Below, one piece after another: positions 6,327 to 21,623 of a stretch of DNA of 56,074 bases. A model generated the notes under the pieces. The model made no database searches and was not told where the DNA came from. It worked only from the letters and a program-made list of their open reading frames with translations. Origin of the DNA: Actinomycetota bacterium (GTDB lineage Bacteria > Actinomycetota > Coriobacteriia > Anaerosomatales > JAUXNU01). The position numbers and the translations under genes were made by a program. The DNA lies in NCBI GenBank assembly GCA_030682655.1, contig JAUXNU010000173.1, positions 1-56,074 on the forward strand, given 5' to 3'. Within the stretch, counting starts at the first letter, position 1. Each line of letters starts with the position of its first letter.

Positions 6327-7161
6327 GTTGTCCTACCGCTTCCGAATAGGCCTCCATAACCTGGCGTGTGATAGGTCCGACCGTGCCGTCTGCGATCACG
6401 CGGTCATCGATCCGGACGATCGGAACCACACCGCGCACCGTCGAGGTGAGGAACGACTCGTCGGCGTCGAGTACCTCTTCCAGCGTGACGTCCCGGTAGA
6501 CAATCTCAATCTGATCCTTCACGACGTCCAGCGCGAATGCCTTGATCGTCCCCGGCAGCACACCCTTGCCGGGTGCGTGGATCTGCCCGTTCTTGACAAC
6601 CATGAAGCTGGCGGTCGCCGCCTCGGATATGAGCCCGCCGCTGTGGAAGAGCATATCGATGGCGCCGGCCTCATCGATTCGGTCGTGGTTGCTCAGCCAC
6701 GTCAGGTAGCTCGTGGTCTTCGCAAGAGGGAACTCGCGTTGGTGTTCGTGCAGGACAAGCTTGCCGCCGTCCGTGTAGACCTCGGCGGGTAGCCGAAAGC
6801 TGTCGTGGGTGAGGATGAAGAAGGTAGGCGTAGCGGGGTCGTATCTCATCCCATCGGGAGACACGCCGCCCGAGAGTACGAGCCGGATGGTCGCTTCATC
6901 CTCGTGCGCGTTCAGCCCCAGCAGCTCGTCGATTGCAGCTGCGATCACTTCGTCTGTGTACGGGACAGCGAGGCCGATCTGAGCTGCCGAAGCGCGTAGC
7001 CTCTCCAGGTGCTCTGCGAGCAGGAACGGTCGTCCTTTCACAGTCTCTAGTAGGTCAAAGACGGCGAAGCCGCGCAGGATGCCGACATCGAATGGGGAGA
7101 CGGTGGCATCCTCGGCGGGCAGGATCCGGCCGTTCAGGTACACGTGTTGCGTGGTCGGCAT
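6319..7161 (-). CDS. Class IV PLP aminotransferase (branched-chain / D-amino-acid type)
   Basis: The 280-residue length is typical of fold-type IV aminotransferases such as IlvE, D-alanine aminotransferase or aminodeoxychorismate lyase. Visible features are VYLNGRILPAEDATVSPFD and GFAVFDLLETVKGRPF at the N-terminus, an AKTTSYLTWL segment carrying the PLP-lysine, and the phosphate-binding ISEAATASFMVVKNG with a later STVRGVVPI. The substrate cannot be fixed from sequence alone. ATG at 7161 with GAGGAG upstream. Confidence 0.85.
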   Translation of the reverse strand: MPTTQHVYLNGRILPAEDATVSPFDVGILRGFAVFDLLETVKGRPFLLAEHLERLRASAAQIGLAVPYTDEVIAAAIDELLGLNAHEDEATIRLVLSGGVSPDGMRYDPATPTFFILTHDSFRLPAEVYTDGGKLVLHEHQREFPLAKTTSYLTWLSNHDRIDEAGAIDMLFHSGGLISEAATASFMVVKNGQIHAPGKGVLPGTIKAFALDVVKDQIEIVYRDVTLEEVLDADESFLTSTVRGVVPIVRIDDRVIADGTVGPITRQVMEAYSEAVGQRA

Positions 7162-13243: not shown

Positions 13244-13336
13244 GGAGAGGTGGCAGAGTGGTTGAATGCGGCGGTCTCGAAAACCGTTAGGCGGGTATCC
13301 CCCGTCTCGGGGGTTCGAATCCCCCCCTCTCCGCCA
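13244..13336 (+). tRNA. tRNA-Ser (anticodon CGA), CCA encoded
   Basis: The acceptor stem GGAGAGG (13244-13250) pairs with CCTCTCC (13326-13332). It is followed by discriminator G and CCA at 13334-13336. The anticodon stem CGGT/ACCG encloses the loop CTCGAAA, giving anticodon CGA. A long variable arm (GGCGGGTATCCCCCGTC) is typical of serine tRNA, and the T-arm is GGGGG-TTCGAAT-CCCCC. The 3' part from 13276 is the left copy of a long direct repeat repeated at 20142, marking it as an integration site. Confidence 0.95.
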
Positions 13337-13344
13337 GGAAGAAC
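13276..13344 (+). repeat. Left direct repeat (att-like) inside the tRNA-Ser 3' part
   Basis: From the anticodon loop through CCA and about 8 bp beyond, this sequence recurs at 20142-20209 with two differences: one C fewer in the right copy and one substitution after the CCA. Its length and position match attachment sites of tRNA-targeting integrative elements. Confidence 0.85.
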
Positions 13345-13347
13345 TGA

Positions 13348-13382
13348 AGACGCCCGCTCCTCGTGATGAGGGGCGGGCGTCT
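13348..13382 (+). terminator. Terminator downstream of tRNA-Ser
   Basis: AGACGCCCGC (13348-13357) pairs with GCGGGCGTCT (13373-13382), followed by GCTTTG. It can also serve the convergent minus-strand NACHT gene, whose stop is at 13420. Confidence 0.7.
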
Positions 13383-13419
13383 GCTTTGTAGCGGGCTACT
13401 GCTCGCTCTCGCTCGCGTT

Positions 13420-16119
13420 CTAGTTCAAGTCGACTCTCGTGTGCCCTTTCGTCCAGTGGACCTTCGCGAGGTCGTCCATCAGCCACTGGTAGCAGATCTC
13501 TGTGATCGGTCGCTTGCCGAAGACATCCAGAACCGTCATCGTCACGTCGCCGAGCGCGACATTCGCAAGGTCTGGTCGGTCCTCCGCAGCCTGGCGAGCC
13601 TCGGCGGCGAGATCCTCGAACGCAGGCACTTCGTCAACGATACTGACGGTCACTCGGTTTTCGCTCTCGGTGGGAATGGGGAGGAGATGCCACGTCCCGC
13701 CCGGACCAGGCCAGCCACCTTCGGAGGTCCGCAGGAAGAACCGGAGATCGACCGGGAAGAGCGTGGCCTTCCGTAGGTGCGGCGAGAGAGGTGCAAGAAG
13801 CCCCGTGCTCAACTGCTCGTATGACGACAGCGCACCCGAGTACACGGACTCGACGCGGAGACGCAACTGCTCGTGCGTGAAGAAGCTCCAGACCCAAGAG
13901 GGGGAGCCAGCCGGTCTGGCATCCGGAAGCGGCCACGGCGCCTGGAGGAACTCCTCGCCCGCCTCGGTAAGCGCCGCAAGGTGGGGTATCAGGGCGAGCA
14001 GAGGCTGCTTCAGCCCGGCCGTGGGGCCCACGAAATGGCAGTCCTCTGGCAGGTTGAGTCGCTCGATTGTACGCGTGAGCTCTGCAACGCTGACCGGCTC
14101 ACCGGTCCAGTCTCGACCAAGCACAGTCCTGGCGGCGAGCCAGGCGGCCTCTCTCGCGATTGGGCCTTCGGCAGCGAGAGGTAACCCTTCTCTGAGCAGG
14201 GCGGTCAGCTCATCGCGAATCTCCCCGTGTGCCCAAGACCACGGCCATGCGGGGCTGGGGCTCGGCGCTGCGCTGCGCATGTGTATCCACGGCAAACGAC
14301 GGGGTGCGCCCCACCCGATGTCCTCCTTGGCGAGGGCCACCACTCGGGGCTGGTCAGGAGAGCTCCGGAGCCAGGCGACAGTGAGCATTGGCTCGTCCAC
14401 GTAGGTGCCAACGGCCGCCACATCTCCGCTAGCGTCCACCGGAACAATGAGGTCGCCGAGCTGTCCCAGCGATCCGTGGAAGGCGACCATGGCTTCACGA
14501 ACGAAGAGACCGGCCTCTTCGGAACTCGGGAGCGGAGGTCTTGCGGCCCCTGTCGCGAACTGAGGCGTTCCGGACTCGACAAGATCGCCAACAAGGCCCG
14601 GGTCCACGGCTACGATTGCGCACAAGACGTCGTGGATGAACCTGGTCGGAGCCATGCTCAGCAGAGCGCGCAAAGCTCCGCGCCAGCGGGAGAGACAGTC
14701 GCGGTCCCCAAGGAGTTCCTCCACGGAGACCACGCCCTCGAGTAACGCACGCGCTGCGAACCATTCCTGTAGCAGCATCAATACGAACTGCACGCTGCCG
14801 TTGTCGGCAATGACCAGGCCCGACTCCAGCAGTGGCGTGAGGTCGCCGGTGTGAGGAAGGTCGCGAATCGCCGCAGGTCCGCTCCGCTTGGTCGATTCAA
14901 CAGCCATTACCATCAGCCATCGTTGTGCCTCATCGTACGATCGCAAGCCGTCCCTGAGTGCTCGGACCACTAGATGTTCAACCAGTTCTCCGGTCGTGGT
15001 GGGTGCGTGCGGATTCGTTCTGAGCCAGAGGCCGATCAGCAGCGCAAACAAGGGTAGCGTCGCTGCTTCACGGATGCTTTCGGGCCAGCGAGCAAGGTCC
15101 CACTCACGAAGAGGCCGTCCGGCGCCGACCGAGGCCAGAGACAGGGCCTTTTCAGCAGATAGAGGCTGGAGGCTCACCGACTCGCCCTGGCGGATCTCCA
15201 GCGAAGTCGCCCTGGTTGTCAGGAGCACGGCTGCCTGCATCCTCGCGGCGAGTGCCCTCGATTCGTCGAGAATGCGTCCAGCACTCCCAAGATCTAGTTC
15301 GTCGAGCCCGTCGACTATCAAGGTCAATGCGGGTGAAGGCGGGTTCCCGATAGCGACAACTCGTTTGCGCACTTGGTCAAGTAGATCGGCTTGCGCCAGG
15401 GTGCGCGAATCGAGCCATACCGGTACGGCCTTCGCCTCCGACATGGCAGCGCGGACGGCCCGCTGAAAGACGCTTTCCGCAAGAATCGACTTGCCGGCAC
15501 CGAGTGGGGCAACTAGAACGCCTACGTGACCGGGGCCGAGTGTGCCCTCAGGCAGTGACCGCTGCACAGGCAGAACATCCGAGAGTCGCGCCGCGTCTTC
15601 GGGGGCTACGCCCGCGGCAATCAGCCGCGTGGCAACTCGGTGCTGGGAGCCCGAGAGGAGGCCCTCAAGTAGCGATTGTCGTGTTGGCTCACGGCCGAGC
15701 GTCCGCTCCACCGTTGAAGCCGTCTGCTTGGCAGCAATGAGGGTGCTCATGACCGCGTCTCGCGAGAGAGACTCACGGAAGGCGTTCAGAAACGCGATGG
15801 CAAGAGACTCGTCGTCTGGGTCGCGGCCGTCGAACCGCGACAGCTCAAGCTCGCTCGGCATTGTTGGCTCCCGAATGCCTAGAGCCTCTTCCACCAGGAG
15901 CCGCCAATTCGCCTCACGGGCGAGAAACGACTCGTCGACTGGCGCGATGAGCCCCCAACTAGCATTCGACTCATTGAGCGATGCCAATGCCAAGTCGTAG
16001 GCGGAACGCATGCGTCGTTCAGTCTCCTCGCCAGGATTCGGCCCGCCAAGCAACGGGATCGCGGACACCGCTGAGAGAGCCAGGCCAATTGCCTCGACGA
16101 CTGTCACCCGAGCCCCCAT
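13420..16119 (-). CDS. NACHT-type STAND NTPase, candidate immune sensor
   Basis: About 899 residues. The numbering here counts from the TTG at 16125, which adds two residues. A P-loop module occupies roughly 195-330: Walker A APLGAGKS (206-213), Walker B TLIVDGLDEL (268-277, the NACHT-style GLDEL form) and a sensor-1-like AVLLTTRAT. An N-terminal 190-residue helical region begins with a hydrophobic stretch (about 10-27), and an NTPase-associated winged-helix-like region follows. The C-terminal 500 residues match nothing I know and would be the sensor. Bacterial NACHT proteins are established antiphage sensors, which with the island setting suggests a defence role (inference). The start is either ATG 16119 or TTG 16125; no strong Shine-Dalgarno decides. 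Confidence 0.75.
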   Translation of the reverse strand: MGARVTVVEAIGLALSAVSAIPLLGGPNPGEETERRMRSAYDLALASLNESNASWGLIAPVDESFLAREANWRLLVEEALGIREPTMPSELELSRFDGRDPDDESLAIAFLNAFRESLSRDAVMSTLIAAKQTASTVERTLGREPTRQSLLEGLLSGSQHRVATRLIAAGVAPEDAARLSDVLPVQRSLPEGTLGPGHVGVLVAPLGAGKSILAESVFQRAVRAAMSEAKAVPVWLDSRTLAQADLLDQVRKRVVAIGNPPSPALTLIVDGLDELDLGSAGRILDESRALAARMQAAVLLTTRATSLEIRQGESVSLQPLSAEKALSLASVGAGRPLREWDLARWPESIREAATLPLFALLIGLWLRTNPHAPTTTGELVEHLVVRALRDGLRSYDEAQRWLMVMAVESTKRSGPAAIRDLPHTGDLTPLLESGLVIADNGSVQFVLMLLQEWFAARALLEGVVSVEELLGDRDCLSRWRGALRALLSMAPTRFIHDVLCAIVAVDPGLVGDLVESGTPQFATGAARPPLPSSEEAGLFVREAMVAFHGSLGQLGDLIVPVDASGDVAAVGTYVDEPMLTVAWLRSSPDQPRVVALAKEDIGWGAPRRLPWIHMRSAAPSPSPAWPWSWAHGEIRDELTALLREGLPLAAEGPIAREAAWLAARTVLGRDWTGEPVSVAELTRTIERLNLPEDCHFVGPTAGLKQPLLALIPHLAALTEAGEEFLQAPWPLPDARPAGSPSWVWSFFTHEQLRLRVESVYSGALSSYEQLSTGLLAPLSPHLRKATLFPVDLRFFLRTSEGGWPGPGGTWHLLPIPTESENRVTVSIVDEVPAFEDLAAEARQAAEDRPDLANVALGDVTMTVLDVFGKRPITEICYQWLMDDLAKVHWTKGHTRVDLN

Positions 16120-16125
16120 CACCAA

Positions 16126-16406
16126 TGACGATCAAGACATCGCCGAGGACAAGTCACCAGTCGATTGTAGCGTCTAGCGCCGACGGTGGGTGCCGTGTTT
16201 CCAGCATCTCTCGGCCTCAATCTACTAGGCCCTCCCGATTCACTTCGAATACCTTGACCTCGCTGTTTCGCGTTCTGTTGCTCTCGACTCTAGCGCGGCG
16301 GAGCGCACAACCTTTGGAGGTTTCCCGCAAGAGTGAATAGGGGTATGCTATTGATGTAGATGGCGAAATATTTCGTATGATATCGACTAATTAGGAACGG
16401 AATCAA
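16126..16406. other. Divergent intergenic region of the island
   Basis: No gene is seen in these 281 bp between the divergent NACHT and HTH genes. The right third is AT-rich and holds the HTH promoter and palindrome. A minus-strand promoter for the NACHT gene must lie in the left part, but I could not assign it. Confidence 0.5.
16351..16381 (+). promoter_or_regulatory. HTH gene promoter with perfect 12-bp palindrome in the spacer
   Basis: TTGATG (16351-16356) and TATGAT (16376-16381) are separated by 19 bp. The perfect palindrome CGAAATATTTCG (16364-16375) fills the spacer up to the -10 box. This is the expected geometry for repression by the adjacent small HTH protein. Confidence 0.6.
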
Positions 16407-16409
16407 TTG

Positions 16410-16595
16410 ATGACCAGCAAGGTGAGAGATCTCCGAAAAGGCCTGCGCATCAGCCGAAACGAGCTTGCACGCAGAGCCGGTCTTACCGCCCAGACAGTAG
16501 CTAGGGCAGAGAAGGGCGAGCCGGTGAGTGAGCTGACCCAGGAGAAGTTGTCCGCTGTGTTCGAGCTTCCTGTCGAGAGTGTCTTCCCTGACTAG
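16410..16595 (+). CDS. Small XRE/Cro-type HTH regulator of the island
   Basis: The 61-residue protein is essentially one XRE helix-turn-helix: VRDLRKGLRISRNELARRAG, LTAQTVARAEKGEPVS, then LSAVFELPVESVFPD. ATG 16410 is used, though the in-frame TTG just before (16407) is possible; AGGAACGG lies upstream. It probably binds the palindrome in its own promoter and so sets expression of the rest of the plus-strand genes, and perhaps of the divergent NACHT gene. Single-domain XRE proteins of this type commonly govern toxin-antitoxin and defence loci. Confidence 0.82.
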   Translation: MTSKVRDLRKGLRISRNELARRAGLTAQTVARAEKGEPVSELTQEKLSAVFELPVESVFPD

Positions 16596-16642
16596 TCGGC
16601 CATGGTATAGTACTCGATTGTCGCAGCATTCAGGAGGAGAGT

Positions 16643-16870
16643 GTGGGAAACATGAGGCTTCGCGTGATACGCAGGGCCAAGTGGACGGTCGCCGACCTCA
16701 GTACACAGGAGGTGCGTGGTGATCGCGCTGGTGCGACCGTACCGAGTGGCGGTGACGGGTCGTGCTTCGATGATTCGCGCGCTCTTGAGCATGCGGCGAA
16801 TTCGGCGATGCAGAACCGGACGGCACTTAGCGAGTCGCTAGATCTAGCGCGACGCCTGCTGCACGGCTGA
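16643..16870 (+). CDS. 75-residue island orphan
   Basis: No family recognised. It starts with GTG at 16643, five bases after AGGAGG, which is a strong ribosome site and the best evidence that it is real. The N-terminus is basic (MRLRVIRRAKWTVADLS), the middle is Gly/Ser-rich, and the last 25 residues form a helix (ALEHAANSAM to LARRLLHG). A TATAGT at 16605-16610 could give it a separate promoter. It sits between the HTH regulator and the metallopeptidase-like gene, so it may be an immunity or adaptor protein (speculative). Confidence 0.5.
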   Translation: MGNMRLRVIRRAKWTVADLSTQEVRGDRAGATVPSGGDGSCFDDSRALEHAANSAMQNRTALSESLDLARRLLHG

Positions 16871-16947
16871 GCCAGCCTCACGTTGGGGTTTGCGCTGTCG
16901 GAGTCGGGGCTTGCCTCGGCTCCTTGCCTTGGGGGTCAGGGGATGAA

Positions 16948-19071
16948 ATGCGGCTTCTCGTTCCGGGATACCACATCGGTTTGTACCGCATCAGGCCCGG
17001 GCACGAGCCTGATGCGGAAGCGCGGCTGCTAGAGGCAGGAGTCCTGTGTTTCCGAGCCCTCGGGACCTTCGATCTCGTGGCATTCAGGCCGCTTGGTCTG
17101 CTGGACGAACGCTTTGACCTGATTCTGCCGAGTGACCTGCTTGGCTGGTGGGACATCAGGTGCTTCCAGTCGGATCTGGATCCCGAGCCTCTGATTGACT
17201 GGCTCGCCGCACAACCGTGCCTGACACTCACCCTCGCGAAACTTCGCCCCCATAAGGGCACAGTCGTGCAGCTCTCCGACGAGATGGAAACCGTTGAGTC
17301 AGTGGTAGGGGGGTACGCAAGTCGAGTCCTCCATACCTTGGGTTGGCATGAGCTTGCAGTTCTGGGCGGCGGTCGGGATCTTGGTGCGTTGCTTGGTGAG
17401 GTCACCGACTTGCGACAGACGCTTTCGTCGAACCTGAGCGCGACTATTACCATTCCGCTCTTCTCGACCGCGGATACTCTCCTAGCTCAATGCGAGGGTG
17501 ATCTTTCGTGTGTGGTCGGGGTTCGTTCTCGTCCAGCCGCGGAAGCAACAGTGGCGGACTACTGGTCATCACGGGGCGAGCTATCGAACGTCTACGGTGA
17601 CCGCGATGTCCTTGTGCGGAGAGATGGGGTTTCGGCAGAGCAATTGATGGGAGAGATTTCTGACTTCCGGAAGCAGTTCGCTGACAGCGGCCTGGTGGAT
17701 ACGTCGACCGAGGTCGTAAGCCCTCTTGCGCAAGGGGCGAGCAGTCCGCCGATCGCCACGGAGTCGCTCTTGTCGGCTGCGGCTGAAGCGCTTGCCGATG
17801 AACTGGCGGCGATTCCATGCACGGACGTGGAGACAGCCAACGCAGCCGTTTCTATGGGCTCGACCCTGGCGGTTCTATCCAGGGATTTCGGGCTCGGCTC
17901 GCTTGGGGTTGAGCAGGTGGCGTCCTTCCAGCTCCTCCTTGAGGAGATTCAGGCCGAGGATCCGGGCGCAGTGCCCGGTAGACGCGTCGGCTTCCGCATC
18001 AGGCTCCTGCGCGCCCTGCGCAACCTTGAGCTATCGCTAGTCCAACGGTCTGGCCAGTCGGACGATAGCAGCATCACTGGCAGTGGTCTGCTCGGACCAT
18101 TCTCTCTGACGGGCGCTGACGCGAGGTTGGCGGCTGCCGCCGCGGCTTGTCCCTTCGAGCTACTGCTCGCGCTCAAGGAGGACGGCCGACCGACGGTACC
18201 CAGGTTCAACGTGGTGTTCGGAGGCTCGTATTCGCCGGCGTACCTTGATGGGACAATCTCCTATCCGCAGACGGTCTGCTATCGTCCGGGCGAGGAGTGG
18301 TGGCGTATCGGGCACGAGGTTGCACACGCATGGTACGGCTTGTCTGACTTCAAGAACCTCCACCGTGCGACATTCGAGGATCTTGAAGACCATATGCGCG
18401 AGTGCCTTGGGGACTTCATGACGGTGTACCCACTCCATTTCGACACCTGGATGGAAGAGCTGTACGCCCAGTGGTTCGACTACAACATCTGCTTCCAGCG
18501 CAACAGAGACCTGTATCTTCGGGCAATCTGGACCGCCTGGATCAAGGTTCCCCGTGTGTGGGACCGCGGTACGGAATACCTGCTCCGGTCACTGTGTATG
18601 TTCTGCTACGACTGTCTTGAAGAGTGGGACGCGACCGCGACCGACGAGACCCGCTACATATCTTGGTTGGAAGGCAAATTCCAGGAGATGACTGAGCTAG
18701 TTCGTGGGACGGTGCCAGGGTTCAACGAGCTCCTCAAGAATGCGCGTCACCACGTGAACCAGATTCTTACTCTCGCAGCAGTGTACGGACTTCCTACCCT
18801 TGCATTCTTCAGTTCGCAAGAGGTGCAGCTTAGGGCACTGTTCGAGCCCCCCAAAATGGCGGCAATCCTTTCGCAGGTGGACATCCTCGCGGACGGTGGC
18901 CTGCTCGAAACCATGCAAGACATACCTCAGACTCTTGTGGAGGTGTATCGGCGCACCGCGGATGGCGCTTGGTGTGGCACTGCTGACGCAGCGCTGGTGC
19001 TCTCCCTCTGGAACTACGTGAACGTGGTCGAAGGCTCGATTGCCTCGTCGCTTGACGACTACAAGGAGTAG
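16948..19071 (+). CDS. HExxH metallopeptidase-like protein with N-terminal sensor-like repeats
   Basis: A 707-residue protein of no named family I recognise. The zinc-peptidase motif is HEVAH (H456, E457, H460) in the context EEWWRIGHEVAHAWYGL. About 43 residues on lies EELYAQWFDY (E503/E504), a plausible third-ligand helix as in gluzincin- or ImmA-type peptidases. The first 260 residues contain segments that look like repeated ferredoxin-like/RAM (AsnC-type) units, for example GWHELAVLGGGRDLGALLG and YGDRDVLVRRDGVSAEQLMG followed by GLVDTSTEVV. This is inference from pattern only. There is no signal peptide, so it is cytoplasmic. ATG 16948 follows AGGGGAT; an upstream TTG frame is less likely. 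The alarmone synthetase starts 5 bp after its stop. Confidence 0.72.
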   Translation: MRLLVPGYHIGLYRIRPGHEPDAEARLLEAGVLCFRALGTFDLVAFRPLGLLDERFDLILPSDLLGWWDIRCFQSDLDPEPLIDWLAAQPCLTLTLAKLRPHKGTVVQLSDEMETVESVVGGYASRVLHTLGWHELAVLGGGRDLGALLGEVTDLRQTLSSNLSATITIPLFSTADTLLAQCEGDLSCVVGVRSRPAAEATVADYWSSRGELSNVYGDRDVLVRRDGVSAEQLMGEISDFRKQFADSGLVDTSTEVVSPLAQGASSPPIATESLLSAAAEALADELAAIPCTDVETANAAVSMGSTLAVLSRDFGLGSLGVEQVASFQLLLEEIQAEDPGAVPGRRVGFRIRLLRALRNLELSLVQRSGQSDDSSITGSGLLGPFSLTGADARLAAAAAACPFELLLALKEDGRPTVPRFNVVFGGSYSPAYLDGTISYPQTVCYRPGEEWWRIGHEVAHAWYGLSDFKNLHRATFEDLEDHMRECLGDFMTVYPLHFDTWMEELYAQWFDYNICFQRNRDLYLRAIWTAWIKVPRVWDRGTEYLLRSLCMFCYDCLEEWDATATDETRYISWLEGKFQEMTELVRGTVPGFNELLKNARHHVNQILTLAAVYGLPTLAFFSSQEVQLRALFEPPKMAAILSQVDILADGGLLETMQDIPQTLVEVYRRTADGAWCGTADAALVLSLWNYVNVVEGSIASSLDDYKE

Positions 19072-19076
19072 CGGCA

Positions 19077-20066
19077 GTGAACGTGCAGCCGAGGAGGATA
19101 CGAACTGACTACGAGAAGCGACTACCGCTGCTAGAGGGGTTTCGTGAGTCGACAGTGTTCGTAGTGGCCAGGGAGTTGCGGCTCTCCAGAGTGGAGTACC
19201 TTCGCGTCGAGTCCCGGGTCAAGGAGTTGAAGTCCATCATCGAGAAGGCCGAGAGGAAGGGTGTGAGCGACCCCCTCGATGCCTTTGATGACATCGTTGG
19301 ACTCAGGGTGGTCACATACCTGAAGCGCGACATCGAGACCGTCAAGGCCGCCATGGCTTCATGCCTCGACGTCATAAAGATCGACGACAAAGTCAACGAG
19401 CTGCCCACACCCGAGAACTTCGACTACCAAGCCATCCACCTGACATTTCGGTTGCGCGATCACTACAAGGGACCTCACTACGACGATTTCAAAGGCATGG
19501 TCGGAGAACTCCAAATCCGGTCCGCGGCCATGGATGCCTGGGCCGTCGTCGCACACGGGCTCGCGTACAGGTCCGACCAGGAGTTGCCCCCCGAACTCCG
19601 GCGCAAGCTCGCAGCCGTCAGCGCCGGGTACTACATGGCAGACGAAGCCTTGGACGATGTGGCGAACGCCAGCGATGCTTTGCGGGAAGACTGGGAGCGG
19701 GCAATCGCCGAGGCGGACCTCGCGGCGGTTGGGGTCAACACACTCTCGCTCACCGAGTACTTGTCGCTTCGGCTCTCCGCCCGCAGGGTGACCGACGCCG
19801 CGATTGTTGCAGGTATTGCCTCTGAGCTCGCCTGTCACGGATACGCCACGATGGACCAAGTGGAGGCGTCTCTTGGCTTCGGGCTGAAGGCAGCCGAAGC
19901 CCTGGAGAGTGATCGGTTGGCCCGAGAGGAAAGGACAGCGCCCTACTCTGCTGGTCCTTTCTTGCTGCTGGCCGTCAACCTAGCTGACGTTGAGTTCGCT
20001 TCGAGGCACGGGGAAGACGTGCTCGTGCGCGAGAGAGATCAGTTTGCCCACCTTGTGAAGGACTGA
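19077..20066 (+). CDS. RelA/SpoT-domain nucleotide pyrophosphokinase, candidate toxSAS-like effector
   Basis: A 329-residue protein with a RelA/SpoT synthetase domain and no HD hydrolase domain. Visible motifs are SRVKELKSIIEKAERKG (46-62), DDIVGLRVV (71-79, catalytic Asp), FDYQAIHLTF (116-125), ELQIRS (144-149, catalytic Glu) and AWAVVAHGLAYR (154-165). The catalytic residues look intact. A roughly 150-residue C-terminal region is unassigned. Such small alarmone synthetases make (p)ppGpp-type nucleotides, or in toxSAS/CapRel relatives modify other RNA or nucleotide targets. It has a GTG start directly after the metallopeptidase stop, so the pair is an operon; it would be a natural growth-arrest effector. 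Confidence 0.85.
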   Translation: MNVQPRRIRTDYEKRLPLLEGFRESTVFVVARELRLSRVEYLRVESRVKELKSIIEKAERKGVSDPLDAFDDIVGLRVVTYLKRDIETVKAAMASCLDVIKIDDKVNELPTPENFDYQAIHLTFRLRDHYKGPHYDDFKGMVGELQIRSAAMDAWAVVAHGLAYRSDQELPPELRRKLAAVSAGYYMADEALDDVANASDALREDWERAIAEADLAAVGVNTLSLTEYLSLRLSARRVTDAAIVAGIASELACHGYATMDQVEASLGFGLKAAEALESDRLAREERTAPYSAGPFLLLAVNLADVEFASRHGEDVLVRERDQFAHLVKD

Positions 20067-20141
20067 AGTTGGGCTCTTGGCATTTCGCTCGTGCAGCTTG
20101 GCTCAACCGAGCAGATGTGTGAATCCGTACCGACGATCCCC

Positions 20142-20209
20142 CTCGAAAACCGTTAGGCGGGTATCCCCCGTCTCGGGGGTTCGAATCCCCCCTCTCCGCC
20201 AGGACGAAC
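20142..20209 (+). repeat. Right direct repeat: orphan 3' fragment of tRNA-Ser
   Basis: It repeats 13276-13344 from the anticodon loop to beyond CCA. It has six instead of seven C residues at the T-stem/acceptor junction and no 5' half, so it cannot fold as a tRNA. It is interpreted as the far attachment site of the island. Confidence 0.85.
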
Positions 20210-20210
20210 G

Positions 20211-20245
20211 CAACGGGCCAGCACTCCTGGAGTGCCGGCCCGTTG
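20211..20245. terminator. Strong hairpin, bidirectional terminator candidate
   Basis: CAACGGGCC (20211-20219) pairs with GGCCCGTTG (20237-20245), and the inner GCACTC pairs with GAGTGC. It is followed by TCTTG. It lies next to the island's right edge and 13 bp from the subtilase stop on the other strand. It may have been the original tRNA terminator or serve the protease gene. Confidence 0.6.
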
Positions 20246-20257
20246 TCTTGTCGCAGA

Positions 20258-21424
20258 CTACTGCAGGACCGCGTCCGCGGCCTGGACGAGGCCATAACCG
20301 TACAAGACGTCTTTGTCGGCCGAGCCCAGATCGAGCGCGCTGGACTGCAGATGCGAGACGATCTCGTCCGGGTCCCAGCCGTCCGTATCGGCCTTGATCA
20401 CGAGGGCTGCGACGCCGGCCACGTGCGGCGCGGCCATCGACGTGCCGGACATCGTCGCGTACCTGTCGCCCTTGTATGTCGAGTAGATGTTCACGCCCGG
20501 CGCCACCAGATCCACGTGGGGGCCGTACGTGCTGAAGGATGCTATCGCGTTGACGGAATCCACTGCGCCGACTCCGACGACACCGGCGTAGGCAGCAGGG
20601 TAGAAGCTCTGCAGTGTCCCGGTGTTGCCGGCTGCCGCCACGATGACCGTTCCACTCTCATAGAGGGTCGTGCATGCGTCCTGGAAAGACTGCACGTACA
20701 CCGAGGAGCCAAGGCTCATGTTGACGACGTCTATGTCGTTGTTGTTGCACCATTCGAGCCCCGCAATGATGTCGGAGGTGTAGCCAGACCCCTTGCGGTT
20801 CAGTACCTTCACGGCGTACAGGTCGATGTCGGACCCGACGCCGACCACGCCGATGGTGTTGTCGAGCGCGGCCACGATTCCGGCCACGTGCGTTCCGTGA
20901 CCGTTGTCGTCCGCGTAACTACCCGTGTAGACGACCTCGCTTACGCCCCCGGCGACAGTGAGATCGGAGTGCTTGACGTCGATCCCGGTGTCGACGATGG
21001 CGACCTTGACCCCGTCACCGGTGTTCTCGTCCCACACCTGGTCGGCCTCGATCTGGTACATGTTGGCCGGCACGATCTCCGCGGCAGGTGCGGGCGTCGG
21101 CTTCTTGACTGCGTAGACGAGGGCGTCACGCTCGACGTACTCAACACCTGTCAGCCCTCGAACCGCACGCTCGGCCGCCACCTCGGGCAGCATGAACACT
21201 GCGCCGTTCACGAGTGGCAACGACCTCAGCTTCACGCCACCGAGTCGCCCGATCGCCTCCCCGGCAGGCGCGTTCGCGCCCGGCTTGAACACAACGATGC
21301 TGCGGACCCCCCCACGATCCGCGAGTGTCGCGCCGGCAGAAACAGCCGTCAGGCTCGTGAGCAGGAGGGCCAGCACGACGATGATGCCTAGCGTCTTGCG
21401 CTTCACGCCAATCACCGTCCTCAT
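20258..21424 (-). CDS. Secreted subtilisin-like serine protease (S8 family) with I9 propeptide
   Basis: A 388-residue prepro-protein. The signal peptide (LGIIVVLALLLTSLTAVSAG) is followed by an inhibitor-I9-type propeptide (about 40-110, RSIVVFKPGANAPAGEAI) and a peptidase S8 domain with the complete catalytic set: Asp in VAIVDTGID, His in NGHGTHVAGI, oxyanion Asn in VAAAGN and Ser in SGTSMAAPHVAG. No C-terminal anchor is present, so it should be released. The ATG at 21424 (GGAAGTG upstream) is preferred over the longer frame to 21454. Confidence 0.92.
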   Translation of the reverse strand: MRTVIGVKRKTLGIIVVLALLLTSLTAVSAGATLADRGGVRSIVVFKPGANAPAGEAIGRLGGVKLRSLPLVNGAVFMLPEVAAERAVRGLTGVEYVERDALVYAVKKPTPAPAAEIVPANMYQIEADQVWDENTGDGVKVAIVDTGIDVKHSDLTVAGGVSEVVYTGSYADDNGHGTHVAGIVAALDNTIGVVGVGSDIDLYAVKVLNRKGSGYTSDIIAGLEWCNNNDIDVVNMSLGSSVYVQSFQDACTTLYESGTVIVAAAGNTGTLQSFYPAAYAGVVGVGAVDSVNAIASFSTYGPHVDLVAPGVNIYSTYKGDRYATMSGTSMAAPHVAGVAALVIKADTDGWDPDEIVSHLQSSALDLGSADKDVLYGYGLVQAADAVLQ

Positions 21425-21623
21425 CGTCACTTCCAGGGTGTGCCAGAACTGCACTCGTACACACCAAGCATACCCACGCCGCGCACGCCCACTATCCGCC
21501 GAACGGATGAATCTCGACGGTGTTTGTGAGATCGATGTGCATGCGTTGTGTGGGGGTGCTACGGCGGATGAGCACGGACGACTCGTTCCGAAAGCGCCTG
21601 GTAGGCACGCCCGGGAGCTTCTG

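Follow-up and report, generated by a model that had tools for sequence, protein, structure and literature searches.

A palindrome in the promoter region of a small XRE regulator as a plausible operator in a tRNA-Ser island of an Actinomycetota bacterium

Described systems closest to the island

According to PMC12565409, most XRE regulators are autoregulatory and bind palindromes, and nine of ten tested predictions were bound. ImmR, DdrO and the other autorepressing regulators covered there resemble the protein considered here in that a small HTH_3 protein, with a Cro/CI-like fold (predicted in our case), has a palindrome in its own promoter region. Unlike the ImmR/DdrO type, the island protein consists of the HTH domain only (61 aa), and its operator is putative and was not found in the relatives examined. 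RptR is encoded by the first ORF of a phage defence island and acts as a repressor of its own promoter, where it binds palindromes that overlap the -10 box (PMC12255303). The gene studied here is also the first of a (putative) defence cluster, but RptR binds three 6-bp TAGCTA sites, whereas the island has a single 12-bp palindrome.

Two other types of regulator are close in layout. CapH and CapP (PMC13373217) are encoded as an HTH repressor and an HExxH protein in one putative immune operon, a layout that the island shares. The difference is that the 61-aa protein has little beyond its HTH domain and that none of the peptidase families searched is matched by the 707-aa HExxH protein. The controllers of restriction-modification systems, C.AhdI and C.BclI, are similar in size, in predicted fold and in being encoded by the first gene of an operon, but the five island proteins match no restriction-modification family and the island has no second operator. 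Last, toxSAS (PMC11782079) and bacterial NACHT systems name possible roles for the island genes, whose toxicity and defence function are putative.

The island and its genes

The stretch of DNA that was analysed (the window) is 56,074 nucleotides long and covers positions 1 to 56,074 of contig JAUXNU010000173.1 (assembly GCA_030682655.1), from an Actinomycetota bacterium of the order Anaerosomatales. The features discussed below are collected in Table 1.

Table 1. Features of the island and of the promoter region of its HTH gene (positions in the window)
Feature	Position	Strand	Remarks
tRNA-Ser(CGA)	13244..13336	+	attachment site of the island
Left direct repeat	13276..13344	+	spans the tRNA-Ser from the anticodon loop onward and ends shortly after its 3' end
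NACHT-like STAND ATPase, 895 aa	13420..16107	-	from GTG 16107; ORF open from TTG 16125
GCTACAATCGACT	16159..16171	-	13-bp block common to the NACHT upstream regions of the window and of L072; longest shared word
-35-like TTGATG of the HTH gene	16351..16356	+	4/6 to consensus; best-scoring pair with TATGAT
Perfect palindrome CGAAATATTTCG	16364..16375	.	12 bp, 0 mismatches; proposed operator
-10-like TATGAT	16376..16381	+	19 nt after the -35-like box
Promoter-like TTGATT-18-TATCAT	16377..16406	-	consensus scan, 1 found vs 0.2 expected; overlaps the HTH promoter
HTH regulator (XRE, Cro/CI type), 61 aa	16410..16595	+	from ATG 16410; Pfam HTH_3
Small ORF, 72 aa	16652..16870	+	from ATG 16652 (75 aa from GTG 16643); translation
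HExxH protein, 707 aa	16948..19071	+	from ATG 16948 (ORF open from TTG 16924); metallopeptidase-like by motif only
RelA/SpoT-domain alarmone synthetase, 329 aa	19077..20066	+	Pfam RelA_SpoT, 66.1 bits
Right direct repeat	20142..20209	+	island end; 97% identical to the left repeat; 68-69 bp

Flanked by direct repeats, the island has the look of a 6.9-kb element inserted into a tRNA-Ser gene and lacking a tyrosine recombinase of its own: scans of its five proteins against four libraries gave no match to an integrase family, and none of the 8 matches to Phage_integrase (PF00589) in the genome lies on this contig. Other genomes of the order also carry the half-tRNA-Ser repeat (L074 in G441:C12, L075 in G477:C247, L076 in G415:C7, L078 and L079), and copies lie a few kb apart in L074 (1277, 2747 and 6515) and in L075 (336 and 3291), which suggests a hotspot where integration recurs and cassettes follow one another in series. 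A half-tRNA-Ser-like copy is also seen at G000:C137:35684-35752 (84%, query 33-101), and a partial integrase match at C137:30108-30299 lies about 5.4 kb from it.

The regulator matches Pfam HTH_3 with 31.8 bits, against a curated cut-off of 23, which makes it a member of the XRE family. Its predicted structure has five helices (mean pLDDT 74) and is matched by Foldseek, with probability 1.00 and E values of at least 0.02, to SinR, the 434 repressor and Cro, C.AhdI and DdrO; C.BclI and the N-terminal domain of CapH (7t5u) are also among the matches. A sequence-only search of PDB chains returned none at E 0.01. The CapH repressor carries a C-terminal dimerisation and cleavage region beyond its HTH domain. 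The island protein ends at residue 61, with a last predicted helix (55-58) of low confidence, and lacks a region of this kind.

The four plus-strand genes of the island, which code for the regulator, the 72-aa ORF, the HExxH protein and the synthetase, likely form an operon and would then be read as a single transcript. The 72-aa ORF has no family match in the libraries scanned, Pfam among them, and is a candidate antitoxin by its position only. A second perfect palindrome, CGCTAGATCTAGCG (14 bp, 16836-16849), lies within it and is probably due to chance, since the window has four palindromes of exactly this length.

The 707-aa protein has the motif HEVAH at 18313-18327 (residues 464-468 of the 715-aa ORF), followed by ECLGD 29 residues further on. 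A Pfam search relaxed to E 10 gave no match to it, the model of its HExxH segment is too poor for use (mean pLDDT 41), and no relatives were confirmed in plasmids, phages, genome_contigs or viral_contigs. The protein was found in one of 396 phylum genomes (its own) and in two of 396 class genomes, the second being a weak match (E 9.2e-4, 120 residues, one internal stop); it also has a 29-residue match to phrog_1999 (function not assigned; E 6.2e-4). The ORF of the synthetase begins 5 bases after the end of that of the HExxH protein. Its synthetase domain, found by Pfam and by matches to YjbM and related PDB entries, is the domain expected of a toxSAS, although toxicity is only putative; it also matches phrog_9640 (E 1.3e-28). 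By annotation, the RelA/SpoT relatives in plasmids and phages and three of their neighbourhoods do not show the layout HTH-HExxH-synthetase.

The gene on the other strand codes for a protein with a Walker A motif (APLGAGKS, 15487-15510) and the sequence LIVDGLDELD (15292-15321). We call it NACHT-like only, because its Pfam NACHT score is below the cut-off (14.8 bits vs 26.7; E 0.025) even though these motifs are visible. Homologues are present in 3 of the 69 genomes of the order, including its own.

The palindrome, its promoter and the relatives of the regulator

The palindrome occupies the last 12 of the 19 nucleotides between TTGATG and TATGAT and abuts the -10-like box. The preliminary description had placed a perfect palindrome between the -35 and -10 boxes, filling the spacer up to the -10 box, in the only AT-rich stretch of the island. 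The observation is confirmed: the palindrome is exact, and the AT-richest 40 bp of 13300-21600 start at 16369 (70% AT, vs 57.5% for the next separate stretches), but the boxes are consensus-like only and the 19-nt spacer is long. A consensus promoter scan with spacers of 16-18 nt returned no plus-strand promoter at this pair. A transcribed hairpin was considered and rejected, since the palindrome is upstream of the -10 box, and so was regulation of the MerR type through a 19-bp spacer, since the protein has no MerR family match and the palindrome is off-centre in the spacer.

With up to 2 mismatches allowed, the window contains a single copy of CGAAATATTTCG (in 47 of 100 shuffles, one or more matches of this kind occur). 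The genome (2,940,109 bases, 2.94 Mb) likewise has a single copy at 0 or 1 mismatch, which means that there is no genome-wide regulon with this sequence.

The search for orthologues of the regulator, whose reach is limited to close relatives, confirmed none in genome_contigs (a collection of 84,980 species, 357 pattern-matching stretches) or in viral_contigs (44 stretches). Distant relatives are present in 59 of 296 class genomes (E 0.001) and in 8 of 396 phylum genomes (2e-5), including the own genome in both cases. Forty relatives were compared, namely 29 non-own loci among the class matches listed, 5 new phylum loci and 6 of the 12 plasmid and phage hits. This sample is uneven, with 15 members of one family and one locus (L032) that looks LacI-like, and the DNA "upstream" of several relatives may be coding, since the matches sit in long reading frames. 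The search for the same palindrome before homologous HTH genes was negative in these distant relatives: CGAAATATTTCG is upstream of none of the 40 relatives, and a lone half-site is upstream of two (L018 and L045).

What is seen instead in 15 of the 40 relatives (L007, L010-L014, L016, L017, L019-L024 and L029) is at least three copies of TGCAAAG or TGTAAAG, on either strand, within 130 bp upstream. These TGYAAAG repeats mostly surround promoters of the type TTGTCA-17-TATGCT or TTGACA-17-TATACT, and in the loci read by eye (L007, L017, L020, L023 and L029) one copy lies inside the spacer; they are predicted to be clean operators. The small XRE regulators of this type (L007, L010, L012, L020, L029 and others) are thus similar to the island regulator in having operator-like repeats over the -35 and -10 boxes of their own promoters, one of them in the spacer. 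They differ in the number of half-sites (at least three, vs one palindrome with no second copy), in the repeat itself and in the recognition helix (TRQTI or TRQTV, vs TAQTV in the island protein), and the operators are predicted on both sides. The class thus shows repeatedly a regulator whose own promoter has an operator-like repeat in its spacer, but the sequence of the repeat is not kept. Since the recognition helix differs, a different repeat sequence is expected, and the comparison neither confirms nor refutes CGAAATATTTCG as an operator.

In viral contigs, the pattern CGAAATATTTCGTATNAT was found in no contig. Two looser patterns, with the palindrome in promoter-like surroundings, gave 18 and 45 stretches (61 different loci), none followed by the start of an XRE HTH gene within 250 bp, where chance placement would give about 0.1. 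This test has low power: in those loci, no more than 4 HTH domains were detected by the home-made HMM.

The nearest homologue of the NACHT-like protein (L072, 1213-4094; 56% identical) belongs to another genus, and its gene is within 70 bp of the same tRNA-Ser. The cargo behind it differs and includes ORFs that, judged by eye, are recombinase-like. Neither an HTH gene nor the palindrome adjoins the NACHT gene, and the ORF next to it on the upstream side bears no similarity to the HTH protein. There is an HTH protein in L072 (94 aa, 35% identical over 34 residues), encoded 2.6 kb from the NACHT gene and near the recombinase-like ORFs. The best match to CGAAATATTTCG in the first 9,600 bp of L072 is CGGCATACTTCG (6716-6727, 3 mismatches, not itself palindromic), far from the NACHT gene and 20 bp before the open frame of this 94-aa protein. 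This is a weak hint toward CGAAATATTTCG being an operator, and it may be a matter of chance, since there is one such match in 9,600 bp.

The upstream regions of the two NACHT genes have GCTACAATCGACT in common, which begins 64 bp from the start codon in the window and 68 bp in L072; a shared word of this length occurs in 2 of 1000 mononucleotide shuffles. The TACAAT that it contains (16164-16169, minus strand) is the probable -10 box of the NACHT gene, for which no good -35 partner was seen. In the alignment with a second homologue (L073, 46%), the TACAAT block is absent, which counts against the block being general. On balance, the NACHT gene appears to have a promoter of its own, at a distance of about 190 bp from the palindrome, and the minus-strand element at 16406-16377 is a possible second one.

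Readings of the palindrome

It may be that the palindrome arose by chance in an AT-rich promoter and that the HTH protein has its binding site elsewhere, or serves as an antitoxin- or excisionase-like partner. The counts lend themselves to this explanation: gapless palindromes of at least 12 bp are no more frequent in the window (20) than in 30 dinucleotide shuffles (24.3 +/- 5.5), and at least one is present in 8.1% of 2000 shuffles of the 284-bp intergenic region (16126-16409) and in 2.7% of 5000 shuffles of the 80-bp promoter stretch (16330-16409), before counting the places looked at. Scored as an 18-bp dyad, the site pairs at 6 of 9 positions, an unremarkable value that is reached in 84% of the shuffles of the promoter stretch (P = 0.84). 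The absence of the sequence from the relatives and, at low power, the lack of HTH co-occurrence in viral contigs go the same way. On the other side, the palindrome exactly abuts the -10-like box, and class relatives show a matching architecture. The palindrome is weakly above chance and draws its support from its location, not from its rarity; we consider a chance origin rather unlikely.

The resemblance of GAAAT-ATTTC to half-sites of the LexA, IclR or LacI families raises the question of whether a host regulator, rather than the island protein, binds the site. A site that is single in the genome at up to 1 mismatch is no regulon consensus. In Gram-positive bacteria, the LexA box is CGAACNNNNGTTCG, with the spacing GAAC-N4-GTTC; the site reads GAA-N4-TTC, its half-sites being two bp closer, and a LexA box was rejected on this spacing. 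Binding by a host regulator is very improbable in our view. A bidirectional switch, in which the HTH protein would repress both its own operon and the minus-strand promoter feeding the NACHT gene, is a little easier to defend and is still improbable: that promoter overlaps the HTH promoter region and is found where 0.2 is expected, and the alignment with L073 does not show the TACAAT block, but the NACHT leader would be about 260 nt long, and the nearer TACAAT block is common to the window and to L072. The suggestion that the palindrome might also be the switch for the divergent NACHT gene was not upheld, given that the L072 homologue has no adjoining HTH gene or palindrome and yet shares this block.

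The reading that we prefer, and hold to be probable with some reserve, is that CGAAATATTTCG is the operator at which a dimer of the 61-aa XRE protein represses its own operon. That the palindrome is the operator of this protein had been proposed from the start; the proposal stands as plausible on the position of the site, on the habit of XRE regulators and on the architecture of the class relatives, while the distant relatives do not share the palindrome. If TTGATG and TATGAT are used, the dimer would bind CGAAATATTTCG against the -10 box and block RNA polymerase; repression of its own promoter would extend to the downstream 72-aa ORF, the HExxH protein and the RelA/SpoT synthetase, and loss or titration of the dimer would turn the operon on. 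The NACHT gene would be a separate module, served by its own promoter.

A bolder proposal is that a minimal, HTH-only repressor acts on a single palindrome and that the orphan 707-aa HExxH protein relieves repression, by cleavage or otherwise, and so releases the alarmone synthetase. This would be a self-contained, damage- or phage-triggered suicide switch of new layout, and it would travel together with a NACHT-like gene on an element at tRNA-Ser without its own tyrosine integrase; we regard it as a long shot.

The palindrome alone changes little, because autorepression by a small HTH protein heading a defence-like operon is well known; by analogy, the arrangement would be ordinary in kind and one more member of the known XRE autorepressors. 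More interesting than the palindrome is the element at the tRNA-Ser gene, which carries the orphan HExxH/alarmone-synthetase operon. If the NACHT promoter is separate from that of the HTH operon, the island is modular rather than one regulon, and if CGAAATATTTCG is the operator, it would provide a single-site handle for switching on the orphan operon and probing its role.
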